Both the position numbers and the translations under genes were made by a program. Positions 310-23,484 of a DNA stretch of 23,484 bases are shown here, in pieces. Positions within the stretch are counted from its first letter, which is position 1; every line of letters starts with the position of its first letter. The DNA lies in IMG/VR virus record IMGVR_UViG_3300033894_000047, positions 1 to 23,484 of that record; one strand, 5' to 3'. A model generated the notes under the pieces. The model saw only the letters and a list, made by a program, of their open reading frames with translations, was not told where the DNA came from and searched no databases. Origin of the DNA: a virus.

Positions 310-600
310 TGTAAGCGAGCATGCTTTAAGTTAGTTGGTTTAAGACCCGGGAAAAGGCGGCAATAGGCGGGAAAAGGCGGTGAGAAACGCGAAAACAGGC
401 GGCGGCGAGGCGGCAAAAAGCGGCGGCACCCGGAAAGGGGGGTGCGTCATGCTTTTGGTAAGAAAGTGCCGGTCAGCCCGTGCTGAAGGCAAAAACACGC
501 TGTCTACAACGGCAAAGTGCGATGAAGAAGGGCTGACTCTCAAAAGTATTAACTAAGTCCGAGTATGCTTTAGGTAAGAAAAGAGCATGCTCCAGGTAAG
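310..600 (+). repeat. Phage terminus with four transposase-site-like direct repeats
   Basis: A 15-bp motif, consensus (C/T)ATGCTTTAGGTAAG, occurs in the same orientation at 320-334 (CATGCTTTAAGTTAG), 448-462 (CATGCTTTTGGTAAG), 564-578 (TATGCTTTAGGTAAG) and 586-600 (CATGCTCCAGGTAAG). Spacings are 128, 116 and 22 bp. The terminus itself starts with TG, as Mu ends do. Mu ends contain three transposase sites per end with unequal spacing, so by position and pattern these are the best candidates for the binding sites of the transposase encoded at 8911. Binding is inferred. Confidence 0.65.
351..423. repeat. Helically phased AAAAGGCGG tracts
   Basis: AGGCGG, mostly preceded by short A tracts, starts at 355, 365, 375, 397 and 408, a spacing of 10, 10, 22 and 11 bp. 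The array fills the gap between the first two transposase-site-like repeats. Phased A tracts tend to bend DNA, and in Mu the equivalent spacer is bent by HU. A bend-assisting role is inference. Confidence 0.45.
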
Positions 601-859
601 TGACAAAAAGCTAGTTCAGACCGGCAAAAACTGCTACGGACTTGACATAGAAGGGCTAATATTCAATGAGAGAAGAAAACCCGCATCAAAAAGGCATAAA
701 GGCGGTTTATGCATCTTAATGCTGTCTAGTAGACAGCGTGGCCTAAAGGCCAAGGGGGTGAGTAGACACCGTAGACAGCATCGGTGGATCGCCACGGAGG
801 CCCTTTTGGACGGCATTATTCACACTTTGCATAGTAGTAGACAGCGTGACGCTGTCTAC
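497..859. repeat. GTAGACAGCGT repeat cluster with perfect palindrome
   Basis: The 11-mer GTAGACAGCGT, or its complement, occurs complete at 497-507 (minus), 729-739 (plus), 837-847 (plus) and 849-859 (minus). Shorter copies lie at 721-728, 762-768 and 771-779. The last two full copies form a perfect 23-bp palindrome with an 11-bp arm and one central base. The copies at 721-737 form a second palindrome. No gene is convincing here and the region is much AT-richer than its surroundings. It looks like a binding-site array (enhancer, operator or iteron-like); the ligand is unknown. Confidence 0.6.
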
Positions 860-1041
860 CGGTCAAAACTAAACATAGCCTGCCAGTATGCAAATCTACC
901 TCTCATGAAAAGCGCTATAATTTTTGCCCCTCTCCTCCCCGGCACCATCCTCCCCTGACCCGGGGCTGGCCCGAGGGGCACTAGAAGGAGCCGCGGCCGG
1001 GCTACCGGCCCGCCTGGCGCGGGTCCTGGGCCTAGAGGAGG
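860..1041. other. Non-coding stretch, no gene seen
   Basis: No supported gene lies between the repeat cluster and the degenerate ORFs at 1042-1273. TATAAT-like bases occur near 915 without a matching -35. GC-rich dyads such as GGCCGG-gcta-CCGGCC near 997-1012 and a GGAGG...CCTCC dyad near 1035-1055 are visible, but neither has a proper T tail. Confidence 0.4.
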
Positions 1042-7864: not shown

Positions 7865-7951
7865 GGGATAAAAGCTTTACCCCCTGGGCTTCCCCAGGGG
7901 GCACTTATCCCACTCTAGCTAAAGACTAACGCTTCTCTCACACCTTGTCAA
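7865..7951 (-). promoter_or_regulatory. Late element A: promoter, conserved leader and hairpin
   Basis: Minus strand: TTGACA (7951 to 7946), 17 bp, TAGTCT (7928 to 7923), 2 nt, then AGCTAGAGTGGGATAAGTG and a 9-bp hairpin CCCCCTGGG-GAAG-CCCAGGGGG (7901 to 7880), followed by TAAAGCTTTTATCC. The -35 overlaps the repressor stop codon. Element B at 17439 has the same parts at the same spacings. The first gene downstream is the holin-like gene and then the protease, like Mu's PI operon. The predicted start (~7916) puts the conserved sequence at the 5' end of the RNA. Confidence 0.65.
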
Positions 7952-8343
7952 TCCAGCTTGCTCCGCACCTCCACCACCCGGCCCACGATCTCGGCCACTT
8001 GGTCCACGGGGATGACGGGAGGGCCGTTGGGCTCCTCGGGGTTGGTGGAGTACAGGGTGCCATCCGGCCCCATCCGCTTGACCACGTAGCTATTCCCGTC
8101 CAGCCGCGCCACCACGATGGCCCCGGGGTGGCCCTTGTCCTGGGTGTTGACGATGATGATGTCCCCATCGCAGATGGGCCGCTTCCCGGCGCACATGGAG
8201 TTCCCCCGCACCTTGAAGGCCACCAGGTGGGAGGCGCTTCCCTTCACCCGCACGGGTACGGTGCGGTCGCCGATTTCCTCCAGCTGGGCGGGGCCGCCGC
8301 CCACGTAGCCGAGGATGGGTACTCCCACTTCTTTTCGGGTCAA
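7948..8343 (-). CDS. Phage repressor, C-terminal S24/LexA-type half (broken gene)
   Basis: The 131-residue fragment opens at a TTG (8343), in the same frame as the HTH half and separated from it only by TAG at 8382-8380 plus 12 codons. It carries the S24 fold: RGNSM with Ser49, then CDGDIIIVNT, and YVVKRM with Lys89, the Ser-Lys dyad of LexA/CI-type self-cleaving repressors. The usual Ala-Gly cleavage site is Gly-Gly here (GYVGGGP), so cleavage may be altered. Whether this half is expressed alone by reinitiation is unknown; no ribosome site is evident at the TTG. Confidence 0.8.
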   Translation of the reverse strand: MTRKEVGVPILGYVGGGPAQLEEIGDRTVPVRVKGSASHLVAFKVRGNSMCAGKRPICDGDIIIVNTQDKGHPGAIVVARLDGNSYVVKRMGPDGTLYSTNPEEPNGPPVIPVDQVAEIVGRVVEVRSKLD

Positions 8344-8379
8344 AAAAGAGCCTTCGGGGTAAAGCCTCTCAATGAGGTT

Positions 8380-8601
8380 CTACACAGGGATTTCTAGCGC
8401 CAAGGAGAGTTTGGTAAGGGTGTCCAGGCTAGGCTTGATGTATTTGTCCCCGATTTTCCGCCCAATGACCAAGCTATACACCGTTGTGCGGCCGATGTCG
8501 TAATAATCGGCAAACTCTTCCAGCTTGCGGAAGCCTTTTTCACGCATTTTGGCCAGGATTTCCTTGGCGAAAGGCCCTTCAAGGTGGCGTTTTTTCTCCA
8601 T
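8380..8601 (-). CDS. Phage repressor, N-terminal HTH half (ends at in-frame amber)
   Basis: The 73-residue fragment has an XRE-type helix-turn-helix: KEILAKMREKGFRKLEEFAD, YYDIGRTTVYSLV and PSLDTLTKLSLALEIPV. The ATG at 8601 with AGGAGGGGG upstream is preferred; the ATG at 8634, also with a good AGGAGG, is possible. TAG follows directly after LEIPV, where related repressors usually have Glu (VPVEEL), and the frame then continues NLIERLYPEGSF into the S24 half. A GAG to TAG change is the simplest origin. It faces the Ner/Cro-like gene across a shared operator. Confidence 0.8.
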   Translation of the reverse strand: MEKKRHLEGPFAKEILAKMREKGFRKLEEFADYYDIGRTTVYSLVIGRKIGDKYIKPSLDTLTKLSLALEIPV

Positions 8602-8658
8602 GAATCCCCCTCCTGTCATGACCTGGGTCCCCATTACTTCCTCCTTTCGCATTACCCC

Positions 8659-8705
8659 TTGACTTACTCACGAGCGAGATGGTACTCTACTCTCAGATGA
8701 GAGTA
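8659..8705 (+). promoter_or_regulatory. Early promoter with palindromic operator
   Basis: TTGACT (8659-8664), 18 bp, TACTCT (8683-8688) forms a sigma-A-type promoter. TACTCTCA-GA-TGAGAGTA (8688-8705) is a perfect 8-bp inverted repeat overlapping the -10 edge and the ATG at 8697. The start point would fall at or within a few bases of that ATG, so the early mRNA is probably leaderless, as is common in Thermus. The palindrome is the best operator candidate for the repressor and/or the Ner-like protein. Confidence 0.65.
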
Positions 8706-8930
8706 AAGGCCCGCTTAAATCTTCACAAAGTTGAACGCCTCCTGGAGGAGCGCGGATGGTCCAAATACCGCCTGTCCCGCTTGGCTGGGCTAAGTTATGG
8801 GCATGTGATTATGCTTCTCCAGGGGCAACGTCAGAATCCGTCCATAGCTACCGTTGCTAAGCTGGCCCAGGCCCTTGGTGTACCTATTGAGGAGCTTTTG
8901 GAGGAGGAGGATGGCGTGGTTACCCATTGA
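8697..8930 (+). CDS. Ner/Cro-like XRE-family DNA-binding protein
   Basis: The protein is 77 residues from ATG at 8697 (an in-frame ATG at 8679 lies inside the promoter). LHKVERLLEERGWSKYRLSR, LAGLSYGHVIMLLQG and PSIATVAKLAQALGVPIEEL form a complete XRE helix-turn-helix domain with almost nothing else. As first gene of the rightward early operon, opposite the repressor, it fits the Ner/Cro role of shutting down early or repressor transcription. It overlaps the transposase start by 20 nt. Confidence 0.85.
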   Translation: MRVKARLNLHKVERLLEERGWSKYRLSRLAGLSYGHVIMLLQGQRQNPSIATVAKLAQALGVPIEELLEEEDGVVTH

Positions 8931-9807
8931 CGAAGCCGCCGCTCTGTTGGGGGTTTCCAGAGCGTGGGCTTGGAAGGTAATCAAGGAAAAGGGTCTGCCA
9001 ACTAGGCCTGAGCGGATGGGTCGCGTGTACCGTACCCTAGTTGACGTTGATCTCCTCGCTCTGGCTTTGGGCAAGGGAGGCAAGGACGCGGAGGAGCCCG
9101 TAGAGCTTCACCCTTCCAGCGGTACGAGGGCTTGGGCTGATGTGGCCCATGTGGCCGAGGAGTATGGTCGGTTACCAAGGGGCCTGCGATGGGAGCTCGT
9201 CCTCCATGCCGCCGATCGGTGGGGTGTGACCCCCGAGTACGCTTACCGAGTCATTCGGCGCTATCGGGAGCAAGGGGTGAGTGGCATCACGCCGAAGGCG
9301 CGCCAGGATAAGGGGGCACACCGGATTCCCGTTGAACTTCGCCAGCTCATCCTGGGTCTGAAGTTGGCTCACCCCGGAGCCTCGGCCTCAAAGATTCTGC
9401 GCATTATCCAGTTGAACGACCCCGGTCTTTTGCGATACAAGCCGTATAAAAACGGCTCTACCATAAACACGCTTTCCGCCTCCACGGTACGTAGGTTAAT
9501 CAAGGCAGCTGAGAGCATCCCCGCATTCCGCTGGGCCCTCCTCTCTGACGAGGGTAGACGGGAGTTCGCCCGTACCTGGGCGGGGCACGTCCTGGCCGAG
9601 TACCCCATGCAGATGGTCATGGTGGACATGACCCGATGTGACGTCTTCGTCTTCAATCCCGATGAGGATACCGCTTACCGCCTTCGCATTCACGTGGCTC
9701 TGGACGTTTATTCCGGGGCCTCGCCCAGTTTGGTTTTCAGCCGCGAGGAGTCCCAAGTCCCCACGGACCAGCTCCTTATCCTGATGACCCAGGACAAGCA
9801 AGAGTGA
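8911..9807 (+). CDS. MuA-like DDE transposase, N-terminal part (frameshifted gene)
   Basis: The fragment is 298 residues from ATG at 8911, with GAGGAGGAGG upstream. Residues 1-50 are a helix-turn-helix (LPIDEAAALLGVSRAWAWKV). Residues ~75-205 are further helical DNA-binding regions (TPEYAYRVIRRYREQGVSGI). Residues 232-295 start the rve/DDE catalytic core with the first Asp in MVMVDM (D239). The frame ends TQDKQE at a TGA (9805), but the rest of the core continues at once in the +1 frame, so the gene carries a one-base-type shift around 9795-9805. This would disable transposition unless the shift is programmed or a sequencing error. Confidence 0.85.
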   Translation: MAWLPIDEAAALLGVSRAWAWKVIKEKGLPTRPERMGRVYRTLVDVDLLALALGKGGKDAEEPVELHPSSGTRAWADVAHVAEEYGRLPRGLRWELVLHAADRWGVTPEYAYRVIRRYREQGVSGITPKARQDKGAHRIPVELRQLILGLKLAHPGASASKILRIIQLNDPGLLRYKPYKNGSTINTLSASTVRRLIKAAESIPAFRWALLSDEGRREFARTWAGHVLAEYPMQMVMVDMTRCDVFVFNPDEDTAYRLRIHVALDVYSGASPSLVFSREESQVPTDQLLILMTQDKQE

Positions 9808-10867
9808 ACTGGCCCCGTCATGGGACATCTTCGGCATCCCGGAGCGGATTTATTGGGACAACGGCCGGGTTTATCGCTCGGAGAAGAGCGAGCACTTCGC
9901 CCGCCAGCTGGGCATTGAGCTGGTCTACTCCCGCCCCCGGGTTTCCCACACTCGGGGGCGCGTTGAGAGGTTTTTCGGTGCGTTCCACCAGGAGTTTGAA
10001 GCCCTTTTGCCTGGTTACGCGGGCCGGGACGCCACCGAGCGGGATTCTACCCAGCTGAAAAGACTGATCGCCAACACTCGGGCTTGGGTGGCGGCGGGCA
10101 TGCCTCCCGAGGAGGACCCCTACCCGAACCGCCTCCTCCTGGAGGAGGAGTACAAAACCAAGGCCTTGGCCTGGCTCCTTCAGGACTGGCACCGGAAGCC
10201 GGTGGACGGGAATCTTTCCCGGGCCGACCTTTTCAGGGCTTTTGTTCCCCGCCACCGTCTCGTGAGGTTGGACCTCGGCGACCTTTATCTCCTTACCGCC
10301 TACCAGACCGAGCGGGTGGTGCGGGGGAACGGCACCGTGGCCTACAACGGCAAGACCTACTATCTCCGCCCCGAGGACGGATCCCTCATTCCCTGGCAAG
10401 GGCAGAAGATCGTGGTCCTGGACGTCCGGGTTCTGCCCGGCCAGCCGCTTCGGGCCGCTCTGCGTCAGCCTGATGGGAGCCTAAAGGTCCTCGGGGAACT
10501 CGTTCCCGAGCCCCTGCGGGCCGACAGCCTCGAGGCCAAGGCCAAGAGGCTGGCCGATAAGGCCGCCATCCGGGCCGTGCGGGAGGCGGCCCAGGAACTG
10601 GCCGCCCAGCTGGGCCCCGCCGTGCGGTTTGAGGAGATTCTGGAACGCCTTTCTGGCCTTGCCCCTCTGGCCCGGCGGGAGCGGGTCCGCCCGATGGCCC
10701 AGGAGCCCCTCCCCCGTCCCTCGGAGGAGGAGATCCGGGCCGCCGCGGCCGAGCTGGAGGACGGCCTGGACGACCTGATTTGGGAGCCCATTGCCCTGGG
10801 CGAGAAGTGGCTCCGGGAGCGGGGCCTTCTCCCCTCGGGCGAAGGGGAAACGGGAGGTGAAGCATGA
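9788..10867 (+). CDS. MuA-like DDE transposase, C-terminal part (frameshifted gene)
   Basis: This is the continuation of the transposase in the next frame: SELAPSWDIFGIPERIYWDN carries the second catalytic Asp (WDNG), and 35 residues later RGRVERFF carries the Glu, a D35E arrangement. Beyond the core come KRLIANTRAWVAAGM, a Mu-type C-terminal beta-barrel (VRLDLGDLYLLTAYQTERVV ... YNGKTYYLRPEDG) and a long helical tail that in MuA-type proteins contacts MuB and ClpX. Removing one base, for example an A in AAGCAAGAG, would join the halves in frame. The stop overlaps the MuB-like start (ATGA). Confidence 0.85.
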   Translation, partial: PRTSKSELAPSWDIFGIPERIYWDNGRVYRSEKSEHFARQLGIELVYSRPRVSHTRGRVERFFGAFHQEFEALLPGYAGRDATERDSTQLKRLIANTRAWVAAGMPPEEDPYPNRLLLEEEYKTKALAWLLQDWHRKPVDGNLSRADLFRAFVPRHRLVRLDLGDLYLLTAYQTERVVRGNGTVAYNGKTYYLRPEDGSLIPWQGQKIVVLDVRVLPGQPLRAALRQPDGSLKVLGELVPEPLRADSLEAKAKRLADKAAIRAVREAAQELAAQLGPAVRFEEILERLSGLAPLARRERVRPMAQEPLPRPSEEEIRAAAAELEDGLDDLIWEPIALGEKWLRERGLLPSGEGETGGEA

Positions 10868-11634
10868 CGGAAGCAGAGATCAACAGGCTCATTGACGAAG
10901 TGTTTGGTGGCTACGTCTCCGAGGCGGAGCTGAGGGACCCCCGCAACGGGTTCATCCCCACCGCCGGCGCCCGGGCCCTGCTGGGCCACCTGGCCCTGGC
11001 AGTCCAGGAGCGCTTCCCCTTCGCCCTGGTGGTGGGGCCTGCCGGGGTGGGGAAGACCCTGACCTGCCGCTACTACGCGATGGAGCACGAAGCCCCCTGG
11101 GTGCGGGCGCAACCCGCCTACAGCCCCGTGGCCTTCCTGGAGGACCTTGCAGTGGAGCTCCGCATTACCAGGCATAAGGTCTTTCGGGTCCTCCTCACCA
11201 TGATCCGGGACGCCCTGCTTCTCCGGCCTCGGGCGGTTTTTGTGGATGAGGCCCAGCTCATGGACCGCCCCACGCTGGAGACGGCGAAGTACCTAGCGGA
11301 CGAGACCGGCTCCACCTTCGTGCTCATCACCACCGATGAGTATGCCCCCCAGATCCGCCGCTACCGGGATATTGAGTCCCGCATCGGCACTGTGGCCCAG
11401 ATAGGACCTGTATCCGCCGCCGAACTGGTGGACATCTACGGGAGCTCGGGCTACACCCGCACCGTGCTGGAAGAGGTGCACCGGCTCACGGGCGGAATCC
11501 TCAGGGACGTGGTCCGCCTCATCAAGCAGATGGACACGCTGGTGGAGCTCAACCAAATCCCCAAGGGAGCCATCACTCCGGCTCACGTGCGGCGCCTGGC
11601 GTCCCGGCTGAACCTGGCAGGAGGTGCAGCGTGA
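10864..11634 (+). CDS. MuB-like AAA+ ATPase (transposition target selector)
   Basis: The protein is 256 residues. Walker A GPAGVGKT lies at residues 58-65, Walker B AVFVDEAQ at ~124-131, sensor-1-like FVLITTDEY about 30 residues later, and a C-terminal lid helix region (LTGGILRDVVRLIKQMD). It is of the MuB/TniB type, coupled by a 4-base overlap to the transposase. Such ATPases coat target DNA, activate the transposase and give target immunity. Unlike the transposase, this frame is intact. Confidence 0.9.
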   Translation: MTEAEINRLIDEVFGGYVSEAELRDPRNGFIPTAGARALLGHLALAVQERFPFALVVGPAGVGKTLTCRYYAMEHEAPWVRAQPAYSPVAFLEDLAVELRITRHKVFRVLLTMIRDALLLRPRAVFVDEAQLMDRPTLETAKYLADETGSTFVLITTDEYAPQIRRYRDIESRIGTVAQIGPVSAAELVDIYGSSGYTRTVLEEVHRLTGGILRDVVRLIKQMDTLVELNQIPKGAITPAHVRRLASRLNLAGGAA

Positions 11635-13112: not shown

Positions 13113-13344
13113 GTTCCTCATCCGCAAGCTCCGGGCCGACCCCGGCACCCCCTACCGCCTGCGCATCCGGGGGCTTACGGGGGAGGGGACGGTGTTCCTG
13201 AAGTGGGACGGGGGCGGGGTCATGTTCTACCTCCGCCCCCTCCGCCAGTGGGAGGGCCCCTACGCCGAGCCCAGGGCCCTGGAGGTCATGGCGGGCTGGC
13301 GGGTGCTGGAGGCCCGGCCCGTGGCCGTGGAGGAGGTGGCGTGA
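13102..13344 (+). CDS. Small hypothetical protein
   Basis: The protein is 80 residues from GTG at 13102 (MDHRFLIRKLRADPGTPYRL), with a short beta-rich core (GEGTVFLKWDGGGVMFYLRP) and many aromatic residues. It overlaps both neighbours. Not recognised. Confidence 0.6.
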   Translation: MDHRFLIRKLRADPGTPYRLRIRGLTGEGTVFLKWDGGGVMFYLRPLRQWEGPYAEPRALEVMAGWRVLEARPVAVEEVA

Positions 13345-13739
13345 GCCTGCGCGAGCGCCTGAAGGAGCTGGGCTGGGACGGGAAGGCCCTCCTCACCCCC
13401 AACCAGGTGGCCGCCCTCCTGGAGGTGGGCCGCCCGGCGGTGGAAGACCTCACGCGGCGGGGCCTCCTCCGGGTGGTGCGCATGGGCAAAAAAAGCTACA
13501 TCACCCTGGCCAGCCTGGAGGAGCTTCTGGAGGGGGCGGTGCCCAGGCGGCGGGCGGTCTGGCTGTCTCTGAGGCTCCTGGAGCGCCTGGGGGCCCGGGT
13601 GGAGCTGGCCACCCACCCCGAGGGCTACGCCGCCCGGGCCCTGGGGGAGGAGGGCCGGGGGCTGACCCCTGAGGAGGCCGTCCTGGCCCTGGCGGACCGG
13701 CTCGCGGGGGAGGTGGAGCGTGAAGGTGGAGATCTCTGA
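13341..13739 (+). CDS. MerR/excisionase-like HTH protein
   Basis: The protein is 132 residues from GTG at 13341. LTPNQVAALLEVGRPAVEDL, TRRGLLRVVRMGKKSYI and TLASLEELLEG form a helix-turn-helix with wing, as in excisionase/MerR-type (HTH_17) domains. The rest (residues ~60-132) is helical. It is likely a DNA-binding regulator of the early or middle region and one of three HTH candidates for controlling the late elements. Confidence 0.75.
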   Translation: MSLRERLKELGWDGKALLTPNQVAALLEVGRPAVEDLTRRGLLRVVRMGKKSYITLASLEELLEGAVPRRRAVWLSLRLLERLGARVELATHPEGYAARALGEEGRGLTPEEAVLALADRLAGEVEREGGDL

Positions 13740-15938: not shown

Positions 15939-16189
15939 CCCCCGAGGAGGCCCTGGACGCCATCCTCATGCACGCCTACGAGGCCGCCTCCCGCGGCGCC
16001 TTCTTGGAGGTGGAGCGGGCGGGCGAGGTCCTTCGGGGGGCTTTGCGCAGGCTGACGGAGGTTGAGCGGGAGCTGGAAGCCCTTCGGGCCCGGGAGGCGG
16101 CCCTGGCCCGGCGCCTTCGGGCGGTGGAGGAGGGCCGCTACCGGGTCCTCAAGCTGGTCCTGGAGCTGGAACGGGAGCTGAAGCTATGA
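15935..16189 (+). CDS. Small coiled-coil protein
   Basis: The protein is 84 residues from ATG at 15935 (ATGA overlap). MTPEEALDAILMHAYEAASR is followed by continuous heptad-like helix (LTEVERELEALRAREAALAR ... LKLVLELERELKL). A dimeric coiled coil is likely. Function unknown. Confidence 0.65.
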   Translation: MTPEEALDAILMHAYEAASRGAFLEVERAGEVLRGALRRLTEVERELEALRAREAALARRLRAVEEGRYRVLKLVLELERELKL

Positions 16190-16998
16190 GGAACGCGTTG
16201 ATCGGACTGCTGATCCTGGCCTATCTGAGCACCCTGGCCATGAGCGCGGGCCACCTGGCCCAGTGGTACGCCCTTTCCCTGGGGGAGCTTCCCCCCTGGC
16301 TGGCCTGGGGCCTGGCGGGGAGCTTGGAGTTCACGGCCTTCCTTCTCTCCCTCCTCTCCAACTCCCTCCTCCGGGGCTCCTCCTGGGCCTCGGGCGGGGC
16401 CCTGGCCGCCCTGCTCCTGGTGTGGATGGGGAACGCCCTCTCCATGCGCCGGGCGGCCCCCGAGCTTCCCATCTGGGAGACCTTGGCCATGAGCCTCTTC
16501 GTCCCCGTGGGGACCTGGGTGGTGGGGAAGGTGGTGGGGGAGCTCCTTGCCTGGCGACCACCCCACCTGGCCGGGGTGGCCGCTAGGGGGAAGGAGGTGG
16601 CCGGCGCGGATGGCCACTCCCCTGGCCAGATGGCCACTCCCCTGTCCACCCCTAGGACCGATGTGGCCACCCGGGAAGGGGGACTGGCCACCCCTGACCG
16701 GACCGGGGCGGCCCAGGTGGACAGGGGTGGCCACTTCCCCCCGGACGAGGCCGAGCCCACGGCCACGCTTCGGGTGAAGCGGAGCGTGGACATGGAGTGG
16801 ACGCTGGAAGGCCGGGCGGTGGAGGTGGTCAGGGCTCTGTCCGCCCACGGCGGTCCCGTGGCCGTGGCCAGGTTGGCCGCGGAGCTGGGGTGGCCACGGA
16901 CCACCGTGAGGCGGTACCTTGAACGCCTGGAGGAGGAGGGGGTGGCCATCCGGACAGAGGAGGGGTGGACCCTGGCCAGGGAGGTGGCCAGTGTTTGA
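16186..16998 (+). CDS. Membrane protein fused to a winged-helix DNA-binding domain
   Basis: The protein is 270 residues, ATG at 16186 overlapping the preceding stop. Four hydrophobic segments lie near residues 5-25, 36-58, 68-87 and 96-118 (ALIGLLILAYLSTLAM, WLAWGLAGSLEFTAFLLSLL, GALAALLLVWMGNAL, WETLAMSLFVPVGTWVVGKV). A Pro/Gly/Thr-rich linker (~125-200) is coded by DNA full of TGGCCAC. Residues ~205-268 form a winged helix (GRAVEVVRALSAHGGPVAVA, RLAAELGWPRTTVRRYLERL, EEEGVAIRTEEGWTL). The layout recalls DUF2637/SpdB-like membrane proteins with C-terminal DNA-binding domains of plasmids and integrative elements. A membrane-tethered regulator is inferred; the order relative to late element B suggests late control. 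Confidence 0.75.
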   Translation: MRNALIGLLILAYLSTLAMSAGHLAQWYALSLGELPPWLAWGLAGSLEFTAFLLSLLSNSLLRGSSWASGGALAALLLVWMGNALSMRRAAPELPIWETLAMSLFVPVGTWVVGKVVGELLAWRPPHLAGVAARGKEVAGADGHSPGQMATPLSTPRTDVATREGGLATPDRTGAAQVDRGGHFPPDEAEPTATLRVKRSVDMEWTLEGRAVEVVRALSAHGGPVAVARLAAELGWPRTTVRRYLERLEEEGVAIRTEEGWTLAREVASV

Positions 16999-23328: not shown

Positions 23329-23484
23329 TGCCCCAGGGCGGGCGTGCGGTCGCGCCCAGGGGACTTCCCCCCTGGGTGAGGAAAGTCCGGGCACCATAGG
23401 GCAGGGTGCCAGCTAACGGCTGGGCGGGGTAACCCGACGGAAAGTGCCACAGAGAAGAGACCGCCAGCGGCCGGGGCTTCCCCG
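23329..23484 (+). ncRNA. rnpB: RNase P RNA, 5' part (runs off the window)
   Basis: CCCCAGGGCGGGCG gives the 5' strand of helix P1. It is followed by a GC hairpin and the near-universal GAGGAAAGTCCGGGC, then ACCATAGGGCAGGGTGCCAG and the ACAGAGAAGAGACCGCC region. This is the conserved 5' half of type A bacterial RNase P RNA, the catalytic RNA that trims tRNA 5' ends. Its P1 strand pairs exactly with the 3' fragment at 265-279 of the opposite strand. Whether the gene is complete beyond the window cannot be seen. Confidence 0.93.

Follow-up and report, generated by a model that had tools for sequence, protein, structure and literature searches.

The window analysed here is the whole of the IMG/VR virus record IMGVR_UViG_3300033894_000047 (23,484 nt), which is a defective Mu-like prophage of Thermus. 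Its plus strand encodes a transposase, a MuB-like ATPase, a large terminase, a portal and a MuF-type protein, and its minus strand encodes a protease, a major head protein, neck, sheath and tube. Matches to phrog_310, phrog_296 and the portal, MuF-type and major head families identify a MuA-type transposase, a MuB-type ATPase and a Mu-type head. The right end of the window's phage lies outside the record; TG...CA ends with a 5-bp target duplication were judged from relatives, where they occur in G008 (TCTGG), G009 (TCCAG), G017 (GTGGG) and G032 (GTTAT). The MuA gene (8911..10867, +) is intact in relatives and broken here by a 4-bp insertion at 9795–9798; the MuB-like ATPase (phrog_296) occupies 10864..11634 (+). 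Four further genes encode helix-turn-helix (HTH) proteins: a repressor with an S24 peptidase domain (7948..8652, −), split by an in-frame stop at 8380–8382 when compared with relatives, a Cro-like protein (8679..8930, +), an HTH_17-like (excisionase-like) protein (13341..13739, +) and a membrane protein with a C-terminal winged HTH (16186..16998, +). The membrane protein has four transmembrane segments and a conserved N-terminal part, and its C-terminal winged HTH is variable, with at least three unrelated-looking HTH types alternating among such proteins; Thermaceae genomes encode proteins homologous to it away from this phage as well. Contig L011 is near-identical to the window (99.99%, gapless alignment) and shares at least the MuA insertion. 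Since both MuA and the repressor are broken, this phage copy is probably not mobile and the array described below is, in this record, probably a relic.

The left end of the phage is the TG at 310 (310..334, +). Positions 260–309 belong to the host and contain the 3′ end of its minus-strand rnpB, beyond which lies mraZ; this rnpB fragment stops at 309, the first end-type transposase site follows at 317–334, and relatives have the same end. The placement of the repeats near a phage terminus in the original prediction was thus correct. The end-type repeat (GAGCATGCTyyAGGTAAG) occurs at 317, 449, 561 and 583, comprising, besides the terminal copy, an internal site ATGCTTTTGGTAAGAAA (449..465, +) and two adjacent sites at 561–578 and 583–600 (561..600, +). 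In three different phages (L031, L018 of the L010 contig, and G007), the outermost 19–42 bp of the left end are tandemly duplicated.

The array lies at 497–859 and consists of four exact and three near copies of GTAGACAGCGT, as originally described. The first is a lone, exact half-site in reverse orientation at 497–507 (−), found at the same place in relatives. It is followed by two back-to-back half-sites forming an imperfect palindrome (719..739), of which 719–729 (−) has two mismatches and 729–739 (+) is exact. Next come GTAGACACCGT and GTAGACAGCAT (762..781, +), a pair of direct half-sites at a distance of 9 bp with one mismatch each (762–772 and 771–781). Finally, two facing exact half-sites at 837–847 (+) and 849–859 (−) make up the perfect 23-bp palindrome GTAGACAGCGT-G-ACGCTGTCTAC (837..859). 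When no more than one mismatch is allowed, the 23.5-kb window has six matches, every one of them inside the array, and chance predicts almost none (mean 0.018, maximum 1, in resampled sequence of 310–1300). With up to two mismatches, 14 matches were observed in the window against 2.4 ± 1.6 in shuffles. The exact palindrome is confined to this phage among the IMG/VR contigs scanned. The region was rightly called AT-rich and non-coding, with a GC content of approximately 50% against approximately 70% in genes and no conserved gene within it. Also borne out is the distinctness of its motif from both the transposase-like (end-type) repeat and the early (Rep/Cro) operator, the latter lying 8 kb away. 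Further inward, at 1145–1215, TTGTGGTAGACTTG occurs twice in tandem, which is a local rearrangement of the window copy; in L030 and L008, a small reading frame on the minus strand occupies the corresponding place.

Relatives were gathered from IMG/VR contigs and Thermaceae genomes by searches with the MuB, tube and portal proteins. In approximately 15 related phages of Thermus and Meiothermus, the corresponding position holds an array built on another motif. While the window and L010 share GTAGACAGCGT, the motif is TGAGACAGCGT in G008, G009, G017, L039, L040 and L043, TGGCACAGCGT in G007 and G032, GTTCACA in L008 and L030, GTTCGCACCGT in L031 and L033, TGCGACA in G021, and TTTCGCA in L045 and L046. 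The Meiothermus-type phages carry CCACTCCGCCA (G039, G041, and G051) or TGTCCAAGCTGG (G036). The layout is alike in close relatives: a lone reverse site near +187 to +230, clusters near +420 to +490, and a facing pair near +530 to +580. In the alignment, the flanking elements TTATGCA, TTGCATA and TATGCWAAT are almost invariant; their counterparts in the window, TTTATGCA (706..713, +), TTATTCA..TTGCATA (817..833, +) and TATGCAAAT (887..895, +), are conserved, the two flanks staying constant while the motif varies. Less in keeping with the enhancer reading proposed below, the lone site near +187 retains an older motif in G009, G017, L008 and L030. No second array of a phage's own motif was found elsewhere in the relatives, and pattern scans with the other array motifs returned solely known contigs or unrelated chance matches.

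The comparison also brought to light a phage family resident at a single chromosomal locus, mraZ-rnpB, with an extra gene for RNase P RNA. Six Thermus genomes with the phage were found (G007, G008, G009, G017, G021, and G032); in each of them the phage splits the host rnpB and brings an unbroken copy, located within the prophage approximately 22 kb from the left end. The window ends at 23484 within this second rnpB (approximately 23334–23484), which is complete and phage-carried in relatives. An interpretation of the outward-pointing rnpB pieces as a replicative inversion was dropped because complete relatives carry the right-hand rnpB inside the phage. A clean 5-bp duplication is present in four of the six genomes, at four different rnpB positions and in a single orientation, and more rnpB positions, again in that orientation, come from the metagenomic left ends (window, L010, L030, L031, and L039). 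Thermus genomes lacking the phage have a single rnpB, beside mraZ in nearly all of them. The Meiothermus-type phages of G036, G043, G050, G051 and G055 lie between mraZ and an intact rnpB, and those of G039, G041, G051 and G053 have their own MraZ-family gene adjoining MuB. Instead of the dispersed, near-random integration of a Mu-like phage, most prophages were found at mraZ-rnpB; the other flanks in L008, L045 and L046, together with G035 as an exception to this location, indicate that insertion elsewhere also occurs. Either targeted insertion or retention of prophages whose loss would remove the only rnpB could account for the location; the fixed orientation and the Meiothermus-type cases favor targeting, and MraZ-guided target choice is a testable idea. 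No published description of a Mu-like phage at mraZ-rnpB with a spare rnpB was found in the literature searched. In L040, the rightmost 160 bp run from a phage right end through approximately 60 bp of 5′ rnpB sequence into a second phage left end, a pattern suggestive of two copies inserted side by side.

A site that changes should have a reader that changes with it; hence, every recognised HTH domain was compared across 12 phages with a known array, using 5000 label permutations. Two of the links in this test depend on overlapping contigs (100% identity between L039 and G060 over 7.1 kb, and 127 identical bases shared by L030 and L006), and G057/L033 and L031 (GTTCGCA array) were left out because their MuA assignment is uncertain. 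Among the 12 phages, every pair with MuA N-terminal domains at least 90% identical has a common array, and the identity of this domain never exceeds 83% in pairs with different arrays. The observed separation was reached by none of the 5000 permutations for the MuA N-domain, compared with 223 for the repressor, 207 for the Cro-like protein and 101 for the membrane-HTH domain, although these counts overstate independence since the phages are related.

The other HTH proteins are each identical or nearly so across different arrays, and none of them thus sets the motif. The repressor is identical in G007 and G017 and 99% identical in G032 and G008, pairs with different arrays, which excludes it as the array reader. 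The Cro-like protein follows the same pattern, with 100%-identical domains beside different arrays, and is likewise excluded. The protein at 13341 is 96–97% identical among the window, L030/L006 and L039/G060, which have three different arrays, so that it too is excluded. The membrane-HTH domain is identical in the window and L008, and in L030/L006 and L039/G060, again with different arrays. The proteins suggested as readers in the original prediction, those at 8697 (Cro-like), 13341 and 16186, are accordingly disfavored. Natural swaps point in the same direction: G007 and G017 share the repressor and Cro and differ in both the MuA N-domain and the array, while G009, G017 and L039/G060 share the MuA N-domain and array and differ in other regulators. 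Between the window and L008, the end sites and the rest of MuA are nearly constant, and the N-domain and array are changed.

Some comparisons fit less well. G032 (TGGCACA) and G008 (TGAGACA) differ in their arrays while their MuA N-domains are 83% identical, and the pairs G007/G032 and G008/G017 each have a common motif despite N-domains as far apart as 67% identity. When the five complete Thermus genomes are considered by themselves, sorting by array is better with the membrane-HTH domain than with the MuA N-domain; among mechanically picked ORFs, no other gene in the left 22 kb of these phages, and no gene in the right arm, sorts exactly by array. We retained the MuA N-domain because fully identical membrane-HTH domains contradict that rival, while for MuA a change of motif has to be brought about by nine differences in 54 residues. 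This preference is a judgement from sequence comparison rather than proof. The sequences themselves do show the array, its fixed position with a changing motif, its co-variation with the MuA N-domain and its mismatch with the other recognised HTH proteins.

The N-terminal domain of MuA (8911..9070, +) is assigned to Pfam HTH_17 and, from co-variation and a structure model, is the predicted array reader. The model of residues 1–230 of the L010 protein (mean pLDDT 76.7) shows an N-terminal winged HTH (strand-helix-helix-strand-strand-helix), a low-confidence linker at 58–75, and then helical domains. Foldseek likened the N-domain to RacA, RdfS, Xis and BldC with weak E-values and matched the later part of the model to TnsB end-binding domains; a PDB sequence search with MuA gave chance matches alone. 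Since the array and the MuA N-domain change together while other DNA-binding proteins can stay constant, the array is most likely a docking site for this domain, and we consider it likely to be the transposition enhancer of a Mu-like Thermus phage. The array had been taken to imply a third DNA-binding protein, either an enhancer protein, a resolvase or a replication initiator. The array does imply an activity beyond end binding and repression, and of the three guesses an enhancer fits best, but co-variation most likely places this activity in the transposase's own N-domain, not in a separate protein.

The best of the alternatives, that the array is an operator for a left-end promoter read by a phage regulator, is unlikely. 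It would fit the conserved TATGCWAAT and CATAAT-like hexamer that follow the array in many relatives, the single sigma-70-like match on the minus strand (858–831) that overlaps the palindrome, and the small HTH gene to the right of the array in L030 and G021. However, the window array lies past the 3′ end of the leftward tail operon, after which there is no conserved gene; moreover, Rep, Cro, 13341 and the membrane-HTH protein do not co-vary with the array, and the Rep/Cro operator motif differs from that of the array. Reading by the membrane-anchored protein at 16186, which would tether the phage end to the membrane, was once favored because, in the five complete Thermus phages, differences in its C-terminal domain follow the arrays exactly; the identical domains in L039/G060 and L030/L006 overturned it, leaving it quite improbable. 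Slightly less probable still is a role of the array in packaging (pac), in partition or as a replication origin, with a terminase, a partition protein or an initiator as its reader. The array adjoins the left end, which is where Mu packaging starts, and its direct repeats are iteron-like, but five phages that have two different arrays between them encode the same 177-aa protein (100% identity) immediately ahead of the large terminase, and no partition or initiator protein was recognised among the window's genes. An origin of the copies as ends of insertion sequences, members of a host repeat family or RNA hairpins is very improbable; the first two are the outcome that the original prediction had named as refuting it, and no mobile element or host repeat bearing the motif was found. 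The palindromes fold well as RNA (z = −3.2), but most relatives have chiefly direct repeats and thus no conserved stem, the array has no Rfam match and no significant DNA match in phage or plasmid collections, and in three Thermus genomes the motif with one mismatch is about as frequent as its reversed control.

We propose a model for the array as a transposition enhancer. Its half-sites, approximately 190–560 bp inside the left end, would be bound by the excisionase/MerR-type (HTH_17) domain of MuA, and recognition of the separate end sites would fall to the DNA-binding region that follows. If Mu is a guide, MuA subunits contacting both the array and the ends would bridge the two, and this bridging may aid assembly of the transpososome on the right DNA. 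The physical binding, the enhancer function and the order of action are what we infer here. The array would be separate from the repressor operator and would evolve with the MuA N-domain as a swappable pair. More tentatively, the pair might be a self-recognition module that is separate from the immunity operator, is swapped as a unit, and has diversified so that co-resident phages with the same ends avoid cross-assembling transpososomes. Closely related phages display at least six array specificities, which are independent of the operator and go with one small domain. With this natural variety, enhancer recognition by a transposase and the evolution of its specificity become testable by simple exchanges of domains and sites in a thermostable system.

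The same phage family includes the prophage of Thermus sp. 2.9 and prophage 2 of Thermus aquaticus Y51MC23, the latter with an L008-type MuA N-domain. The available part of their published description already annotates the genes as Mu-like and reports the shared flanks (mraZ, L31), with no mention there of an array or enhancer and with 'rnpB' and 'RNase P' absent from that text (PMC4605624). BldC-type proteins bind head-to-tail to direct repeats with a spacing of 9 bp or roughly one turn of DNA (PMC11963761), and the direct-repeat spacing of 9–10 bp in the array is in line with this. The arrays of BldC, Xis and RdfS thus share the domain type (Pfam HTH_17; Foldseek) and the spacing; however, the domain here forms the N-terminal portion of a DDE transposase, and the array belongs to a phage end, not to a promoter or an attachment site. 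A close parallel is the enhancer (internal activation sequence) of phage Mu, which, like the array, has several sites and lies internally, not far from the left end. In Mu MuA, the enhancer is bound by the N-terminal winged-HTH subdomain, apart from end recognition by the next two subdomains (PMC3362531), and the same division is predicted here. A Mu-type enhancer is also bent by IHF between its two halves and promotes transpososome assembly in cis; the features noted in this connection in the Thermus phages are the conserved TTATGCA and TTGCATA flanks. In Mu, the enhancer and the repressor operator coincide and are labelled O/E (PMC3820752), whereas in the Thermus phage they lie 8 kb apart with different motifs, and the repressor, which is of the CI/LexA-like S24 type unlike that of Mu, does not co-vary with the array. 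Also unlike Mu, the motif in the Thermus phages varies from phage to phage together with the MuA N-domain.
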